From a virus, in IMG/VR virus record IMGVR_UViG_3300031566_014042, positions 1-21,667 of that record: a DNA stretch of 21,667 nucleotides; one strand, 5' to 3'. Positions within the stretch are counted from its first letter, which is position 1. Every line of letters starts with the position of its first letter. Below, piece after piece: positions 1 through 21,667 of this stretch. The notes below the pieces were generated by a model. The model had not been told where the DNA came from. It worked only from the letters and a program-made list of their open reading frames with translations, and searched no databases. Made by a program: the position numbers and the translations under genes.

Positions 1-1434
1 TCAGAGCCAGTCTATGCCCCAGCGGTTGCGCGGGTGGCAGGATATCTTTATCGGCTCGGCTAAGAGCGGGGTTTCCAGGACCATCCAGAGGGGGCGGACG
101 CCGGTTGTGTTAATGGTGATCTCGGCGCCGATCTGCACCAGGAGACCCCGTTTTTCTTCTATTGGCGAGGCCTGCCAGTTCTCTTCTACGCGGTCGGCTA
201 TGGCGAGCACCTGCTTCATAGAAATCCGCGGAGACGGCGGCGGCACCGGATCCGCTTTGGCGTCAAGCTCGGCGATGAGGTTCAGGAACTCAGCCTCGGT
301 GATGTGGCCCTGGACATAGAGGTGAACCGCGCGATCGCGCATGGCGGACAGATCTCTCGCACGCGGAGGACGCATCGGTGCGGGCGGTAGGATGCCCTGT
401 GCGACCTGGGCTTTCGTTTGACTAAAGAAGTTTTGGGCTGCGCGGGCGGCCATAGCGTCCACATAGCGGTCGCTCACATGGTGGCTATCGCAGGCGCCAT
501 AGAGTCGCTTCATTTTGCACACCCATTGGAGAAATCTCACCCCGTCGCTGTTTCCCCTGACTGGAACAAGCAAGGACCCGCAGAGCGAGCAAGAAAGCAA
601 GCCTCCGTAGGCGAGAAGGGTTTGTGGCCGGCGCGGAGAATACTGGCGGTGCTCCAGGAGGGCGGCAGCCTGGTTTACGAGTTCCAGAGGGACGACTTCG
701 GGCACGAGGTCGGGGGCATCAATGGTGCGGCCGGCCCAGAAGAGCTGGCGGCGGTAGAAGGGGCTCTTGAGGAGACGGAGGACGGTGCAGGGGATCCACA
801 GGCTGCCCTTGGGACTCGGAACGCCCTGGCGGTTAAGCTCATAGGCGACTCCGGTAGCATTTCCGCCCGAACGGACATAGGCATCGAACAGCATCCGGAC
901 GTCGTCGGCTCGGTCGGTGATATTGAAGGCCTTCGTGGCAGGGTCGTATTGCATTCCGAGCGGGAGATTACCTCCGGGCCACCTGCCGGCGAGGAACTGG
1001 GCGAGGTGGTGCTCGTAGATTCGCTGGCCGGTGAGCCTGCGTTCAAACTTGCGGACGTGCATCATAAGGCCATGGAGCAACTCGCCGCTGGGCGTGGAGA
1101 GATCAATCGGGTCCTTGATGGAGATAAGCTGGCAATTATGCTTTGCGAGGAAGGCGATACCGGAGTACTCATCCTGGGGATCACGGAAGAGGCGGTCCAT
1201 GCGCAGGACGATAAGGCCATCGAATGGGCGATCTTTGGCACTGACGGCGCGGAGGAGCTCCGACCCAGCGGGCCGCTTCTCGACGGGGATGGCGGCGGAG
1301 ACGCCGAAATCGCGGTAATCGCCGACGAGCTGGTAGTTCTGAGCGGTGCATTCCTGCTTAATGAGCGAGAGTTGGGTATCCAGGGAATCGTCCTGCTGGT
1401 CGGTGCTGCATCGGAGATAAGCGGTGACTTTCAT
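1..1434 (-). CDS. Large serine recombinase (phage integrase type)
   Basis: Site-specific DNA recombinase, the probable integrase of the element. From the ATG at 1434 it has 477 residues. The N-terminal resolvase domain shows Arg8 and the nucleophile Ser10 (YLRCSTDQQ), and the LRMDRLFR motif supplies Arg78, Asp80, Arg81 and Arg84. The Ser10/Arg8 numbering matches classical resolvases, which is why I prefer this start over the in-frame TTG at 1503. A recombinase domain follows (about 155-265), then a zinc ribbon with Cys282, Cys285, Cys306 and Cys315, and a helical tail. The stop codon is bases 1-3, so the gene is complete but its far flank, where an att site is expected, is outside the window. 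It is last in a leftward operon. No good ribosome binding site precedes either start, so translation may depend on coupling. Confidence 0.93.
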   Translation of the reverse strand: MKVTAYLRCSTDQQDDSLDTQLSLIKQECTAQNYQLVGDYRDFGVSAAIPVEKRPAGSELLRAVSAKDRPFDGLIVLRMDRLFRDPQDEYSGIAFLAKHNCQLISIKDPIDLSTPSGELLHGLMMHVRKFERRLTGQRIYEHHLAQFLAGRWPGGNLPLGMQYDPATKAFNITDRADDVRMLFDAYVRSGGNATGVAYELNRQGVPSPKGSLWIPCTVLRLLKSPFYRRQLFWAGRTIDAPDLVPEVVPLELVNQAAALLEHRQYSPRRPQTLLAYGGLLSCSLCGSLLVPVRGNSDGVRFLQWVCKMKRLYGACDSHHVSDRYVDAMAARAAQNFFSQTKAQVAQGILPPAPMRPPRARDLSAMRDRAVHLYVQGHITEAEFLNLIAELDAKADPVPPPSPRISMKQVLAIADRVEENWQASPIEEKRGLLVQIGAEITINTTGVRPLWMVLETPLLAEPIKISCHPRNRWGIDWL

Positions 1435-1494
1435 TGGGGCGGCCTGCGCCGATGGCAGGGGCGGCGTGGGCTGCCGGGTCGTGTGATTGGACGT

Positions 1495-1512
1495 ATTGAC
1501 CAATTTGTCAAT
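1495..1512. promoter_or_regulatory. 18-bp palindrome at the serine recombinase 5' end
   Basis: ATTGACCAATTTGTCAAT is a near-perfect palindrome (ATTGAC/GTCAAT arms), lying between the 85-aa gene and the recombinase and overlapping the alternative TTG start. It could be a repressor or recombinase binding site. Function is inference; only the symmetry is seen. Confidence 0.35.
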
Positions 1513-3180: not shown

Positions 3181-3933
3181 GTGCAGACAACACCAGTAAA
3201 CCACAACTCCCTGGAAAGCGCCATCCGTAAAAGTGCCAGTTTTGATGCTGACTTCTGGCTACGGGTGGAGAAGAGGGGTGCGGACGAATGTTGGCCCTGG
3301 CTCGGTAGGTGCTCTCCCAGCGGTTATGGTCGTGCGCGGTGGCTTGCCAAGAGCGAATATGCCCACAGGGTAGCATACCGCCTTGCCGTGGGTCCGATTG
3401 CTGACGATCTCTTTGTTATACATTCCTGCGACAATCCGCCCTGCTGTAATCCACTTCATTTGAGGTTAGCGACGGCTGGCGAGAACATGCGGGACCGTGA
3501 CCGCAAGGGCCGGAGCAGGTACGGACCGAACGCACCACGGCTCAAGCTATCCCTAACCGAAGTTGTACGCCTCCGGGCAGAGGAGGCCAAACGCCGAGAG
3601 GCGACCCGCCGTAGAGCCTTGCGTAGACTGATGAACCGACGACTCGCCGAGTTCACGAGGATCGCTGAACCGCTGGTGGCGGATGGCGCATCGCTGGTAG
3701 CCATTGCCCACGCTGCAGATGTGAGCGTCAAGACAGCGACCAAGTTCTGTCGCTTGGGTGGGCTGGCTTATGACAAAAAGCGCCGCATGCCCCTATCCAC
3801 AGGTGAATTTATAAGTTTTGTCAAAAACCGGCGGATGATAGGTTTGAGGATTCTGGATATGGCACGTGAGTTGGGTGTCTCCAAGTACATGGTGAGGAAA
3901 TACATGAAGTTGGCCGGTATCCCTAGTGGCTAG
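3181..3933 (+). CDS. HNH homing-type endonuclease with C-terminal HTH motifs
   Basis: 250 residues from GTG 3181, 23 nt after the HTH gene. The N-terminal half carries the phage HNH pattern: ECWPW (36-40), AHRVAY (61-66), then IHSCDNPPCCNPLHL (80-94) with metal/catalytic His and Cys-Asn residues, and a basic RDRDRKGRSRYG segment. The C-terminal half has two probable DNA-recognition HTHs, near 168-190 (SLVAIAHAADVSVKTATKF) and 222-245 (ILDMARELGVSKYMVRKYM). Such free-standing HNH nucleases are common selfish homing genes in phages; a role in packaging is less likely because it is far from the terminase. A short coding remnant follows its stop, consistent with insertion into an older gene. Confidence 0.85.
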   Translation: MQTTPVNHNSLESAIRKSASFDADFWLRVEKRGADECWPWLGRCSPSGYGRARWLAKSEYAHRVAYRLAVGPIADDLFVIHSCDNPPCCNPLHLRLATAGENMRDRDRKGRSRYGPNAPRLKLSLTEVVRLRAEEAKRREATRRRALRRLMNRRLAEFTRIAEPLVADGASLVAIAHAADVSVKTATKFCRLGGLAYDKKRRMPLSTGEFISFVKNRRMIGLRILDMARELGVSKYMVRKYMKLAGIPSG

Positions 3934-4897: not shown

Positions 4898-5359
4898 ATG
4901 GAAGTGGAGATACAAATCGAGTGCAAGATGCTGTATTTTCTGGCGGGGGCGCAGGAATGCGTTCTCGACTTCGAGATCGAGGACGAGGAGAAGCGGCCCC
5001 AGCTTCTCAGGATACTGGCTCCGCTGCAAGGAAAGTACGTCCCGATATGCGTGAGGGCGAGCGGTTCCGATGGGGATCGGATATTCCTCGGGACGAAGTT
5101 ATCCGCAGCGGCTCCGGTGGGAGACAGCATCCTGCAGGTGAGCTTTACACTCCCCGGCAACAAAGCCGGGCCAGGTACGCTGGTCCGGAGGGAAACGATC
5201 GGGCGAGCGGCGGCGATCGCGGGGCTCGATGTGAAGCTCTGTATGCAGTGTCCGGAGATTGGGACCACGCTAAGACAAGGAAAGGGGATGGAAGCAGATG
5301 GGAAGGAAGAAAGCAGGGAAGCAGTCAGCGGACAGCGCTCAGCGGACAGCAGAGAGTAG
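4898..5359 (+). CDS. Hypothetical early protein overlapping the parB-like gene
   Basis: 153 residues from ATG 4898 with GAGGAAAGGG upstream. Residues 1-110 look like a compact beta-rich domain (VEIQIECKMLYFLAGAQE, YVPICVRASGSDGDRIFLG, ILQVSFTLPG). The last 20 or so residues (EESREAVSGQRSADSRE) are low-complexity and read through the beginning of a 7-bp repeat array, so the true ancestral stop was probably earlier. The final 62 nt overlap the start of the ParB-like gene in another frame. No known family recognised. Confidence 0.75.
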   Translation: MEVEIQIECKMLYFLAGAQECVLDFEIEDEEKRPQLLRILAPLQGKYVPICVRASGSDGDRIFLGTKLSAAAPVGDSILQVSFTLPGNKAGPGTLVRRETIGRAAAIAGLDVKLCMQCPEIGTTLRQGKGMEADGKEESREAVSGQRSADSRE

Positions 5360-7271
5360 TCAGCAGCCAGCAGACAGCAGCCAGCAGTCAGCAGCCAGCT
5401 ACGCGGAGATTCCGATCGGGAAGATCGTAGTTAGCGGGGACAATCCCAGGAAGCATTTCGACGAGGAGAAGCTGCTGGAACTGGCGGAGAGCATCCGGGC
5501 GCACGGGGTGATCGAGCCGATCGTTGTAAGGCCGGTGAGGTTGTCGGCTGGCGACCGGTTTCAATCCGACGGTCAGGAATACGTGGTGGACGCTCCTGGG
5601 GGCGCTGAGGTCCCGAACATCACCTACAAGAGGGAGAAGGCTCTACAGCCCGCCTGGGAGACTCACGAGGTATTCGCAGAGAAGCACAGCTTTGACTTGA
5701 AAGGCGGGGGTCTATACCGCTACCACCTTATCGTCGGAGAGCGGCGGCTACGGGCCGCGGTGATCGCCGGGTTGACCTCGGTGCCGGCAATCGTGAAGGA
5801 ATGCGACGACAGGAAGTCTAGCGAGCTAAGGCTCATCGAGAACTTGCAGCGGCAGGACCTGGATGTGGTCGAGGAAGCGACGGGCTACCAGGCGTTGATC
5901 GCCCTGGGGTACAGCCAGTCGGAGATCGGGGCGAAGGTTGGGCGAGCACAGCCGACGATTGCGAACAGCATCCGGCTGCTGAAACTGCCGGAGGACGTCA
6001 AGGAACGGGTAAGCACTGGCGAGATCTCCGGCAGCCACGGGCGCGCGCTGGTGCCGTACGCGGAGATCAACCCGGCGGCGGCGTCGGTGTTGGCGTCCGC
6101 CGCAGCGGACCACCGCCAATTGACGTCGAAGCAACTGGAACAGATGGACTACTCTGTGGCCTGCATGCTCGGAGAGAACCTCTGCGTCCAGATGCGGACG
6201 TATGACGCGCCGTTCGTCGAGAAGACGTGTCAGGGCAAATGTGATTGCTACAGAAAGGGCGACTGGTGCCTCAAGCCTGAGTGTTACAAGGCTAAGCTGG
6301 CCGTTGCCGAGCAGGCTCACCGGAAGCGCGTCGAGGCACTGATCGCGAAGGCGACGGGTGAGGGAGTGGAGGTGGTCGACCTGTCCAAGCTCAGAAGCGA
6401 GAACTACGAAACGCTGCGCGAGGGCCATGTCCCGGACGGCTGCCGCGAGGATTGCGAACACCGGCGGTTGGGTTCACATCAAAAGGGCGGCGAGCCTTTC
6501 TCGGTTTGCGTCAACATGCACTGCTATCGGAAGCTACGGAAGGCCACGATCAAGGCCAAGAACGCCGCTCGGAAGCAAGAACTGGACCAGCTCCTGAGCC
6601 GGTGCATCGAGGGCCTGGACGCGCACCAGAGGTTCGACCGCCTGGAGGCGGTGGTATGCTGGGAGGCGATTCGAGCGGCGAACAAGGACGTCGTCAAGGC
6701 GGCGATCGCCCGGCTCGACCTGCCGCTCGACGTGGAGCTGCTCAAGGGATTCGGCAAGTTGACGGAGAAGCTGGACGCCCTGCGCTCGCTGCCGGGCACG
6801 ACCGCGATGTACCTTGCGGCTGAGATTCTTCTGCGCGGGGAGCACAAGCAGGCGCTCCCGTCGGGGGAGTATTGCGCCGGAGCGACTCCGGTAGGGATGC
6901 AGTGGTATCTCGAGATCGAGGAGACTTCCGGCTCGGCTGAAGGCGCGGCGGAGGAAGAGACTGTCGAGCAGGCGGCCGAGCCGGCGTCCGAAGACGGCGC
7001 TGTTTTCGTCGTTTGCGTGGCCTGCGGGTCGGAACTCCGCCTAGCCGAGGATTCTGAGAAGGCGGAGGTTGGGGACCCATTCGGGACCGCGTATTGCGCC
7101 AACGAGGAGTGCGAGACCCCGGTCATGGTGCCGATCGGGGCGACAGTTCAGATCCCAGGGGAACGGTGGACATGGACGGAGATCGGCTGGCAGGGGGTAC
7201 TGGGCCTCGAAGCCGAACCGCCGATAGACGCCGATGGGAGTGGAGAAGAGAGCGATGTCGCCGGCGACTAG
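5298..7271 (+). CDS. ParB/Spo0J-like protein with cysteine clusters
   Basis: 657 residues from ATG 5298. Residues 1-34 are a Ser/Gln/Ala linker coded by a repeat array. The ParB nuclease/CTPase-like core starts at YAEIPIGKIVVSGDNPRKHF (35-54) and includes the GERRLRAA motif (148-155) and ELRLIENLQRQDL (176-188), with a roughly 60-residue insert before GERR. A HTH follows (GYSQSEIGAKVGRAQPTIANSIRLL, about 204-228). Beyond about 305 come Cys pairs (CQGKCDC, CLKPECY, CREDCEH, CVNMHCY) and a C-terminal zinc ribbon (VCVACGS ... CANEECETP). ParB proteins load onto DNA at parS-type sites; phage and plasmid members also act in replication or transcription. No ParA is encoded here, so classic partition is doubtful. 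The cysteine clusters suggest extra metal-dependent DNA or protein contacts. Confidence 0.88.
   Translation: MGRKKAGKQSADSAQRTAESSQQPADSSQQSAASYAEIPIGKIVVSGDNPRKHFDEEKLLELAESIRAHGVIEPIVVRPVRLSAGDRFQSDGQEYVVDAPGGAEVPNITYKREKALQPAWETHEVFAEKHSFDLKGGGLYRYHLIVGERRLRAAVIAGLTSVPAIVKECDDRKSSELRLIENLQRQDLDVVEEATGYQALIALGYSQSEIGAKVGRAQPTIANSIRLLKLPEDVKERVSTGEISGSHGRALVPYAEINPAAASVLASAAADHRQLTSKQLEQMDYSVACMLGENLCVQMRTYDAPFVEKTCQGKCDCYRKGDWCLKPECYKAKLAVAEQAHRKRVEALIAKATGEGVEVVDLSKLRSENYETLREGHVPDGCREDCEHRRLGSHQKGGEPFSVCVNMHCYRKLRKATIKAKNAARKQELDQLLSRCIEGLDAHQRFDRLEAVVCWEAIRAANKDVVKAAIARLDLPLDVELLKGFGKLTEKLDALRSLPGTTAMYLAAEILLRGEHKQALPSGEYCAGATPVGMQWYLEIEETSGSAEGAAEEETVEQAAEPASEDGAVFVVCVACGSELRLAEDSEKAEVGDPFGTAYCANEECETPVMVPIGATVQIPGERWTWTEIGWQGVLGLEAEPPIDADGSGEESDVAGD
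5322..5399. repeat. 7-bp tandem repeat, CAGCAGN family, in parB-like 5' end
   Basis: An irregular array built from CAGCAGC/CAGCAGA/CAGCAGT and CAGCGGA units. It codes for the disordered N-terminus of the ParB-like protein and, in another frame, the tail of the upstream protein. Confidence 0.85.
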
Positions 7272-13382: not shown

Positions 13383-14240
13383 ATGGAGGATGTTTTGAGT
13401 GGATTTCGCGCGGAATTGGAGAGGCAGGATCTGAGTCCGGCGACGGTCCGGGGTTATATCAACGATGTGGAGTTGTTCGCTCGGTGGTACACGGATGCCT
13501 ACGGCGAGCAGTTCGATCCGGCGCGGATCGTTCAGCGGGAGGTCTCGGAATATCGGGCGTGGATGCAGCAGAAGCCCGCTGCGGCTGAGACGATCAACAG
13601 GCGGCTAACCTCGATCAGAAAATTCTTCGATTGGCTGGGCGGAAACAATCCGGCTGCCGCCGTGAAGGGGGTTGCGATTGTTGATCCGGGCGTGCAGGCG
13701 CTGTCCACGCCGGAACTGCGGCGGCTGATGCGGGAGGTCCACGTCCACGGCGTAGTCCGGGATATCGCGATCCTGGAGGTCCTGTGCGGGACGGCGATCC
13801 GGGTCGGCGAGCTGGTGCAGCTCCGGGTCGGGGATGTGGAGATTTCGGAGCGGAGGGGCGCGGTCAAGGTTCGGAGCGGCAAGGGCCGGACGAGCCGGGA
13901 AATCCCGCTGAACGTGGACGTGCGGAAGGCATTGGCGGCATGGATAGCAGCCAGCGGCCAGTCGGAGTGGCTGTTTACGGGGCAGCGAGGGCGGCTGACG
14001 GCCGTCGGAGTGTGGCGGGTCGTGCGGAAGTACGGCAAGTTCGCCGGGATCCCGAATCTGCGAGTGCATCAGCTCCGACACACGGTATTGACGCGGCTTG
14101 TGCGGGAGTGCGGCGCCGACCTGGCGACGGTGGCGAGGATTTCGGGGCATCGGGATATCCGGACACTGACGCGGTACATCGAGCCGACGCAGGACGACCT
14201 GGCGCAGGCGGTGGAGAAGCTGGCGCTGGGAGGGGAGTGA
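13383..14240 (+). CDS. XerC/XerD-like tyrosine recombinase
   Basis: 285 residues from ATG 13383 with AGGAGGAGC upstream. The N-terminal core-binding domain (about 1-90) is followed by the catalytic domain with the full set: Arg140 (GTAIRVGEL), Lys167 (GKGR), His229 and Arg232 (HQLRH), His256 (SGHRD) and nucleophile Tyr265 (LTRYIE). Size and motifs match XerC/D more than long phage integrases, as there is no arm-binding domain. Possible roles are resolving genome multimers after replication, or use of the host dif site. With a large serine recombinase also present, this is a second recombination system. An 8-bp inverted repeat and a possible promoter lie upstream. Confidence 0.92.
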   Translation: MEDVLSGFRAELERQDLSPATVRGYINDVELFARWYTDAYGEQFDPARIVQREVSEYRAWMQQKPAAAETINRRLTSIRKFFDWLGGNNPAAAVKGVAIVDPGVQALSTPELRRLMREVHVHGVVRDIAILEVLCGTAIRVGELVQLRVGDVEISERRGAVKVRSGKGRTSREIPLNVDVRKALAAWIAASGQSEWLFTGQRGRLTAVGVWRVVRKYGKFAGIPNLRVHQLRHTVLTRLVRECGADLATVARISGHRDIRTLTRYIEPTQDDLAQAVEKLALGGE

Positions 14241-15142: not shown

Positions 15143-15153
15143 GGAATTACAGA

Positions 15154-15188
15154 CAGTCGGTAGTGGATAGTCGGTAGTCGGTAGTGGG
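15154..15188. repeat. 7-bp tandem repeat, TAGTCGG family
   Basis: Consecutive TAGTCGG/TAGTGGA/TAGTCGG/TAGTCGG/TAGTGGG units in non-coding DNA before the first structured RNA. Confidence 0.8.
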
Positions 15189-15220
15189 AGGAGAAGAGTA
15201 AGGGTAAGACAACTGAATAA

Positions 15221-15318
15221 TTTGCCCGAATAGGCATCCGGCCAGGTGCCGAAAGCGGAGATTTCACAAAGCCCTGATCCTTGCGCAAGGGGGATCGGGG
15301 CTTTTCTCCGTTTCGGGC
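15221..15318 (+). ncRNA. Structured leader RNA, copy 1
   Basis: P1: GCCCGAA (15224-15230) with TTCGGGC (15312-15318). P2: GGCATC/GGTGCC (15233-15250). A GAAAG joiner follows. P3: CGGAG (15256-15260) with CTCCG (15306-15310). P4: AAAGCCCTGATCC (15268-15280) with 15292-15304, topped by TTGCGCAA and followed by TTTTCTCC. A paralogous copy at 21383-21484 preserves all four stems with different P2 bases. It ends 26 nt before the exonuclease start. P4 looks like an intrinsic terminator within a larger fold, as in attenuating riboswitches. No known class recognised. Confidence 0.6.
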
Positions 15319-15344
15319 TAGTTTTAAGGGTGAGGGATGCCGGC

Positions 15345-15908
15345 GTGATAGATCATATTGTCCTCGACGTGGAAATCCAGAAGACGCTTGAGGAGCTGCC
15401 GAACGGGTGGGATGACACCCATCTGATGGGCGTCTCCTGCGGCGTTGTCTACGAGTACTCCACCGATCGGTTCCGAATCTACGGGCCGGACGACGTGCCG
15501 GCGCTCCAGGAGCGGCTACTCCGGGCGGACCAAATTACCGGGTTCAACATCTGGAGGTTCGACTTCCCGGTGATCTGGGGGCTGCCGTGCCGGCAGAGGG
15601 TGGAGAGCCTTCGCACGCTTACGAACGACCTACTCCAGCGGATATGGCAGACTCTGGGCCTGGACGAGGAGCAATTCTCGGATTTGCACAAGGGCTGGGG
15701 TCTGGATGCAGTCGCTCGTGGGACTCTGGGGGTCGGCAAGAGCGGCCATGGCGCCTCTGCGCCCGAATGGTATCAGGCGGGGAACTGGGCTCGCCTGGTT
15801 GACTACTGCATGGACGACGTCCGCTTGGAGCGCGACCTGGCGGCATTCGTGGACCGGTATGGCTATGTGGTGAACGGAAATACCGGGAAGGTATTGAGGC
15901 TGGGCTGA
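15345..15908 (+). CDS. DEDD-type 3'-5' exonuclease (RNase H-like, YprB-like)
   Basis: 187 residues from GTG 15345 with GAGGGA 6 nt upstream; GTG 15330 is a possible alternative, and a longer reading would run through the leader RNA. Motif I is VLDVE (acidic pair near 6-8), motif II lies in ITGFNIWRFDFPVIWG, and motif III is YCMDDVRLERDL, a typical Exo III-like Y-x-x-x-D arrangement. Metal-dependent nuclease with an RNase H-like fold. As the first gene of the packaging transcript and abutting TerS (1-nt overlap), it may process DNA ends or recombination intermediates, but this is inferred. Confidence 0.78.
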   Translation: MIDHIVLDVEIQKTLEELPNGWDDTHLMGVSCGVVYEYSTDRFRIYGPDDVPALQERLLRADQITGFNIWRFDFPVIWGLPCRQRVESLRTLTNDLLQRIWQTLGLDEEQFSDLHKGWGLDAVARGTLGVGKSGHGASAPEWYQAGNWARLVDYCMDDVRLERDLAAFVDRYGYVVNGNTGKVLRLG

Positions 15909-18440: not shown

Positions 18441-18447
18441 GGATGTC

Positions 18448-18470
18448 GAGAGTTGAGTGTGGAGTGTTGA
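18448..18470. repeat. GTTGAGT-family repeat after terL
   Basis: GAGAGTTGAGTGTGGAGTG then TTGA: degenerate 7-bp units in the gap between TerL and the next small ORF. Confidence 0.75.
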
Positions 18471-18485
18471 GCGGGCGGATGAGGC

Positions 18486-18623: not shown

Positions 18624-18937
18624 AGGAAGGAATCATCATTATCGCAGTCTTGGTGGCGCTTCTCGTGTGGGAGAAGGTTCAGCGCATCGTCGAGGGGCGG
18701 CGCTGGGCCGGGGAGAGGCGTGATCTGCTGAACCGGGTGATGGCGAGGAATTTTGACGAGTACGTGGTCAGCACGGAACAGCCAGTAGTCAGGATTCAGC
18801 AGCCAGTAGGGAGCGGTCAGGGGGAAGATCAGGAGCCGGAAGAAGACATAGACCTGGCCCGGGGCGAGCATGAGGTCATAGCACAGCTTACCTCGAAGGC
18901 CGAGGCAGGATATCAGGAGTTTGTGGGACGTCGGTAG
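18620..18937 (+). CDS. Small membrane-anchored protein between TerL and portal
   Basis: 105 residues from ATG 18620; starts at 18521 and 18590 have no better ribosome site, and coupling to the 45-aa ORF through ATGA favours this one. Residues 4-17 (GIIIIAVLVALLVW) form a membrane helix, followed by a charged region (EGRRWAGERRDLLNRVMARNFDEY) that is conserved-looking in small phage proteins at this location. A linker QPVVRIQQPVGSGQ comes from a repeat. The C-terminus is acidic. Function unknown; a holin or spanin is not supported. Confidence 0.65.
   Translation: MKEGIIIIAVLVALLVWEKVQRIVEGRRWAGERRDLLNRVMARNFDEYVVSTEQPVVRIQQPVGSGQGEDQEPEEDIDLARGEHEVIAQLTSKAEAGYQEFVGRR
18779..18811. repeat. CAGCAGCCAGTAG-type repeat in the membrane protein gene
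   Basis: CAGCCAGTAGTCAGGATTCA followed by GCAGCCAGTAG, related to the CAGCAGN and TAGTCGG units elsewhere, and read in frame as QPVVRIQQPVG. Confidence 0.6.
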
Positions 18938-18968
18938 AGTTGAGTGTTGAGTGTTGAGAGTTGAGAGC
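18938..18968. repeat. GTTGAGT-family tandem repeat before the portal gene
   Basis: AGTTGAGTGTTGAGTGTTGA then GAGTTGAGAGC: at least three 7-bp units starting one base after the upstream stop and ending 18 nt before the portal ATG. Confidence 0.85.
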
Positions 18969-18985
18969 AGGAACAAGAGGCCGCG

Positions 18986-21360: not shown

Positions 21361-21382
21361 CGGCCAGTAGCAGAATTTCATA

Positions 21383-21484
21383 TTTGCCCGAATAGTCCCG
21401 ATGGCCATCGGGACGAAAGCGGAGGCTAGAAAGCCCTGATCCTTACGTAAGGGAGGATCAGGGCTTTCTCTGTTTTCGGGCAAA
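21383..21484 (+). ncRNA. Structured leader RNA, copy 2
   Basis: P1: TTTGCCCGAA (21383-21392) with TTCGGGCAAA (21475-21484), 10 perfect bp. P2: GTCCCGAT/ATCGGGAC (21395-21402 and 21407-21414). GAAAG joiner 21415-21419. P3: CGGAG (21420-21424) with CTCTG (21468-21472). P4: GAAAGCCCTGATCC (21429-21442) with 21455-21468, topped by TTACGTAA and followed by a T-rich run (TGTTTTC). Same layout as 15221-15318, with complementary changes. It lies 109 nt upstream of the last ORF. Confidence 0.6.
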
Positions 21485-21592: not shown

Positions 21593-21667
21593 ATGCTTAC
21601 TCTCACAGGGATGCTAGCCGTCGGCTTGGCCGCTCTACTCGGAGCGGTGGTCGAGGGCGGCAGCGCC
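21593..21667 (+). CDS. Partial ORF with hydrophobic N-terminus
   Basis: The first 25 codons from ATG 21593, with GAGGAGGAG 4-8 nt upstream, run off the right edge. MLTLTGMLAVGLAALLGAVV is hydrophobic and could be a signal peptide or membrane helix. In most tailed phages a scaffold or capsid gene would follow the portal, but the visible part does not identify it. Confidence 0.6.
   Translation, partial: MLTLTGMLAVGLAALLGAVVEGGSA

Follow-up and report, generated by a model that had tools for sequence, protein, structure and literature searches.

A Two-Copy int-alpA-like RNA Element with an Extended P3 Arm in a Phage Genome

Introduction

What is a sequence that occurs twice in a phage genome, whose stems differ between the copies and still pair, and what might it do for the genes that follow it? 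The question arises from a window of 21,667 bases, the whole stretch of DNA analysed here, taken from an IMG/VR record. Within this window, positions 15215-15325 and 21382-21481 form a same-strand repeat pair with an identity of 79%, and no third copy is present. A preliminary description, made from the letters of the DNA, had presented the pair as a four-stem RNA motif supported by covariation, belonging to no recognised family and placed just upstream of a packaging operon. We examined the fold of the two copies, their relationship to known RNA families and the genes around them. Probably, both copies are int-alpA-type leaders that act in cis (Rfam RF02996, or the nearest relative of that family), with a changed regulatory arm.

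Extent and Predicted Fold of the Two Copies

Both copies lie on the plus strand. Copy 1, from P1 to P1', occupies 15224-15318 as delimited by repeat comparison, Rfam scanning and folding, and copy 2 occupies 21383-21484 by repeat comparison and folding. Their folding energies are far below those of shuffled sequences (z of -4.28 for copy 1 and -7.39 for copy 2), with no shuffle equally stable, and the four stems P1, P2, P3 and P4 are predicted in both. In copy 1, folding and the parsing of family members place the 5' strand of P1, GCCCGAA, at 15224-15230, opposite TTCGGGC at 15312-15318. Member parsing then gives the joiner J1/2, UA (15231-15232), the P2 hairpin GGCATC-CGGCCA-GGTGCC (15233-15250) and the joiner J2/3, GAAA (15251-15254). 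The 5' strand of P3, GCGGAG (15255-15260), pairs by folding and alignment with CTCCG (15306-15310), which is followed by a T at 15311. Enclosed by P3, folding predicts P4 (15268-15304), a long AAAGCCC...GGGCTTT hairpin that substitutes for the P3 loop of int-alpA and carries the palindrome CCTTGCGCAAGG at its top. Copy 2 is laid out in the same manner. Its P1 joins TTTGCCCGAA (21383-21392) to TTCGGGCAAA (21475-21484) by folding; folding and parsing give UA at 21393-21394, P2 as GTCCCGAT-GGCC-ATCGGGAC at 21395-21414 and GAAA at 21415-21418. P3, GCGGAG (21419-21424) with CTCTG (21468-21472), surrounds a P4 that folding and a terminator scan place at 21428-21469.

The preliminary description held that P1, a GAAAG joiner, P3 and P4 are common to both copies; P1, UA, GAAA, P3 and P4 are indeed common to them. 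It also held that P2 differs completely and yet pairs. Pairing is indeed kept in both copies (GGCATC/GGTGCC in copy 1 versus GTCCCGAT/ATCGGGAC in copy 2), but the difference is not complete: counted from the base of the stem, three pairs are changed on both sides, one is changed on one side and two are the same, and P2 of copy 2 is longer by two pairs. The pairing-preserving changes described in P4 (U-G to U-A) and in P3 (C-G to U-G, or G-C to G-U as we write it) are correct. The change in the P4 cap from TTGCGCAA to TTACGTAA, by contrast, does not count as covariation, since the G-C or A-U pair in question would close a loop of two nucleotides; what this change does preserve is a 12-bp palindrome. 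The perfect 12-bp palindromes of the copies, CCTTGCGCAAGG and CCTTACGTAAGG, are maintained via symmetric changes. Direct covariation evidence had been claimed for the pair as a whole. A P2 that is replaced and yet paired speaks for this claim, but covariation within a single pair of copies is thin evidence, and the decisive support for a structured RNA is the comparison with int-alpA. The broader proposal, a functional structured RNA in place of a plain DNA repeat, is supported, as stems have been replaced while pairing and junction letters were retained.

Relationship to the int-alpA Family

A scan of the whole window against Rfam at gathering thresholds gave no match. A permissive scan aligned copy 1 to model positions 1-71 of int-alpA (RF02996) with 24.9 bits and an E value of 0.0023, corrected for all families. 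The alignment contains a 42-nt insertion inside P3, and its score is below the family's gathering score of 35.8 bits, which makes the Rfam comparison that had been proposed for this locus a near-match for copy 1. For copy 2 an int-alpA match was absent up to an E value of 10; its matches to miRNA and sRNA families were rejected as chance resemblance to its hairpin.

For a comparison at the level of single letters, int-alpA RNAs were gathered from viral contigs and from a set of 299 genomes, all of one phylum and chosen around a Comamonadaceae genome, of which 47 contributed. The alignment held 98 matches, from which 66 distinct members were parsed. J1/2 reads UA in 63 of the 66, J2/3 reads GAAAA in 44 and GAAA in 7 (51 together), and J3/1 reads CU in 48 and U in 12 (60 together). 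The P2 loop is GACG in 27 members, CGGCCA, the second commonest, in 12, and GGCC in 4. The corresponding letters are UA, CGGCCA, GAAA and U in copy 1, and UA, GGCC, GAAA and U in copy 2. Both copies therefore have the three-way junction of P1, P2 and P3 with the int-alpA joiners UA, GAAA(A) and U or CU, and both have a P2 loop of the family type. Random junction letters equalled the scores of the copies 0 and 1 times in 2,000,000. Furthermore, the GCGGAG...CTCCGTT and CGGCCAG of copy 1 recur in the accepted int-alpA loci L210, L213 and L223 (38.3 and 37.2 bits).

Other searches did not reach the two copies or their relatives. Neither copy was recovered by covariance models made from int-alpA sequences (44 in one, 16 in the other), presumably owing to the 42-nt insertion in P3 together with the longer P2, and we still count this failure against membership. 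DNA pattern searches for the window-type motif, both exact and gapped, found no relative in the viral and genome collections; what they matched by chance were tRNA genes, coding sequence and an unrelated hairpin. A pattern search of the viral collection for int-alpA RNAs whose P3 is long gave no true member, and no other P3-extended member was found. Taken at the level of sequence, the element is very probably related to int-alpA as a divergent variant. The fitting label is an int-alpA-like divergent variant, not a filed member, in view of our own int-alpA-only models that miss both copies. The suggestion that the motif is of no known family and could be new is mostly overturned by the Rfam match and by junction letters like those of the 66 members, and it survives for the long P4 arm on P3, which is new.

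The likeness between the window copies and int-alpA extends beyond the junction, the joiners and the CGGCCA or GGCC loop of P2. Both are intergenic, lie on the coding strand of phages shortly 5' of a start codon, and occur in several copies per element. The differences are found in the arms. In the window copies, an extra hairpin of 15-17 bp (P4) takes the place of the P3 loop, which in int-alpA measures about 5-11 nt, and the P2 stem of 6-8 bp is unlike that of int-alpA. A pseudoknot between loop and downstream sequence is typical of the family (64 of 81 members), whereas the window copies have no significant complement; AAGGG stands at the position of the int-alpA pseudoknot strand in copy 1 only. 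Closest in letters is a GAAAG...UU sub-type from Enterobacter phages (L210, L223, L224 and L246), with the CGGCCAG loop and CGAAAGCGGAG...CTCCGTT as in copy 1 and, like the window, two copies per phage with differing stems. Unlike the window copies, this sub-type has a loop, CACAGA, that pairs with UCUGUG, has no P4, and is followed by HNH endonucleases and not by an exonuclease-like gene.

int-alpA as a Putative Cis-Acting Leader

Rfam types int-alpA as an sRNA gene, and the gathered members allow this filing to be reconsidered. An open reading frame of at least 100 amino acids starts within 60 nt of 76 of 92 int-alpA RNAs, versus 22 of 97 in a mirrored control. Of 81 members, 64 have a complement of at least 5 nt to the P3 loop just 3' of P1' (shuffled mean 14.7); 46 have another further downstream (shuffled mean 17.4), at a median of 7 nt 5' of a start codon. 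Loop and partners change together across the family, CCUUCA occurring with UGAAGG and CACAGA with UCUGUG. With a P3 loop complementary to a decoy strand downstream and also to the Shine-Dalgarno sequence, int-alpA has the appearance of a translational leader acting in cis, and the sequences suggest a switch in which the two pairings would exclude each other.

The genes downstream of int-alpA encode diverse accessory proteins and frequently come straight after an integrase; HNH endonuclease genes within tail operons are also found downstream. It is directly 5' of HNH endonuclease-type genes at L246:20001-20107 and L246:27143-27230 (Enterobacter phage ENT1), at L245:12001-12086 and at L224:4382-4442. 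The two ENT1 copies differ in P1, P2 and P3, share an identical loop, decoy and Shine-Dalgarno hairpin, and each precede an HNH gene; this is the same paired-copy pattern as in the window. In E. coli strain ABWA45, int-alpA lies inside a prophage tail operon, and the gene that follows has no Pfam match. Elsewhere, three copies on one contig (L203:2651-5157) and two on another (L204:6411-7168) are found within a few kilobases, with short gaps to the next open reading frames, as if there were one leader per clustered gene. The window itself contains an HNH_3 endonuclease frame at 3181-3933, with neither copy of the element upstream of it. Among known phage leaders, the homing-endonuclease genes of T4 carry hairpins that sequester the ribosome-binding site (PMC2988022). 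These are alike in being structured phage leaders thought to control the timing of translation, and differ in being simple hairpins governed by promoter choice, with no conserved junction (PMC2988022).

Genes and Start Signals around the Copies

Copy 1 marks the boundary between regulator and late genes. The gene 3' of it (15345-15908, plus strand) is RNase H-fold 3'-5' exonuclease-like by weak PHROG and Pfam matches. Its GTG start at 15345, which homologous proteins support, lies 26 nt past the end of P1' at 15318. The placement of the motif 26 nt upstream of a packaging operon thus holds for the distance, but the first gene is the exonuclease-like one, and the small and large terminase subunits come after it. 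Between P1' and the start lie AAGGG and then GAGGG (15326-15336, plus strand), the latter being the Shine-Dalgarno sequence, 8 nt before the GTG. Copy 2 is followed by an open frame (21593-21667, plus strand) that begins 108 nt after P1' and runs off the end of the contig, so that the distance to the start codon is family-like for copy 1 and atypical of int-alpA for copy 2. No motif was found upstream of relatives of the exonuclease-like gene, which counts against the leader reading, and a terminase search gave no close viral relatives.

One further pairing partner is present in copy 1. GGATGCC at 15335-15341, over the Shine-Dalgarno region, is complementary to GGCATCC on the 5' strand of P2 (15233-15239); this 7-nt complement has a p of about 0.03 for the core and 0.08 for the whole motif and is suggestive only. 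Pairing of P2 with the Shine-Dalgarno was not borne out as a trait of the int-alpA family, and a pseudoknot in the window copies, when tested, was not significant.

Some observations concern the record and its neighbours more widely. The record holds both a large serine recombinase (1-1503, minus strand) and a tyrosine integrase (13383-14240, plus strand). A dispersed GTTGAGTGTTGAGTGTTGAG minisatellite lies between genes at 1680-1716, 18446-18482 and 18933-18969 of the window, and filler repeats similar to it are found at 5316-5412 and 15150-15195. Such filler repeats are common in planctomycete-like genomes. On a different contig of 66 kb (IMGVR_UViG_3300047496_000334, with loci L043 and L088), tandem CTAGCGGAGATTACTCGAMAAGCG-like units lie near both ends.

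Weighing the Explanations

P4 is the feature on which a different account can be built, namely that the copies are structured intrinsic terminators, with P4 halting or attenuating transcription from one phage module to the next and P1 to P3 doing no more than stabilising or insulating it. The strong AAAGCCC...GGGCTTT hairpin of P4 has a T-rich stretch behind it, copy 1 is situated where the regulator gives way to the late genes, and a simple terminator scan flags P4 of copy 2 as terminator-like. In copy 1, P4 also resembles the GAAGCCCUGA...GGGGCUUC hairpin of the sar antisense RNA (RF00262), a weak match of 17.8 bits (the gathering score is 43) to an RNA that has no three-way junction. However, U fills 5 of 8 positions of the tail, P4 of copy 1 is unflagged, and a terminator at copy 2 would halt transcription within the late gene run. 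This account also leaves the retained UA, GAAA and GGCC letters and the replaced yet paired P2 unexplained, and the int-alpA relatives have no P4. We consider it unlikely. The preliminary description had proposed control of late-gene read-through or a structured terminator. P4 is transcribed before the 3' strands of P1 and P3, so a complete junction comes too late to control termination at P4. Termination as the main role of the element is, in our judgement, rather improbable.

The two other accounts part with int-alpA altogether. A categorically new class of phage RNA that has converged on an int-alpA-like junction would fit the score below gathering, the int-alpA-built models that miss the element, its unique P4 arm and the DNA patterns that yield no relative; it is very unlikely, given junction and P2-loop letters that fit int-alpA beyond chance and P3 letters identical to those of known int-alpA RNAs of Enterobacter phages. 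A mobile inverted-repeat element of the MITE kind, or a palindrome to which a protein or recombinase binds, would act as DNA and not as RNA. Two intergenic copies, the 10-bp terminal inverted repeats of copy 2 and the symmetrically maintained 12-bp palindromes can be read in this way, but the P2 arms were replaced and still pair, no target-site duplication is seen, no further copies were found in genome or viral collections, and the junction letters fit an RNA family, which leaves this the most improbable account.

The int-alpA-type leader with a changed arm would work as follows. The element would form part of the 5' untranslated region of phage transcripts, and its architecture, as the letters show, is P1 - UA - P2 (GGCC-type loop) - GAAA - P3 - U(U) - P1', as in int-alpA. 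The P3 loop of an ordinary int-alpA RNA most likely chooses between the decoy and the ribosome-binding site, and hence sets translation. We infer regulation in this phage on the grounds of sequence: copy 1 would serve the exonuclease-like gene, and copy 2 likewise the next late gene. The P3 loop would here have been swapped for the P4 hairpin, which buries the anti-Shine-Dalgarno-like letters CCCU and CCUU that could pair with AAGGG and GAGGG. The window copies may then be locked with the Shine-Dalgarno free, may use another strand (the P2 arm of copy 1 with the Shine-Dalgarno region), or may act in part as a weak terminator. Translational control in cis is the role that we lean towards, with a slight preference. 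That the output arm was exchanged, from an anti-Shine-Dalgarno P3 loop to a terminator-like P4, with the same core now acting on transcription or RNA stability and not on translation, is a doubtful extension of the leader reading; if true, int-alpA would thereby gain its first branch with an extended P3.

Significance for the int-alpA Family

The comparison suggests that int-alpA, filed by Rfam as an sRNA gene, is rather a cis-acting leader that serves accessory genes of phages, HNH endonucleases among them. To this family the window would add a divergent two-copy branch, in which the P3 loop is replaced by a long hairpin and the junction is retained. That the junction stayed while the loop was exchanged suggests that recognition resides in the junction, and what the junction senses, be it a protein, the ribosome or a ligand, becomes a testable question.
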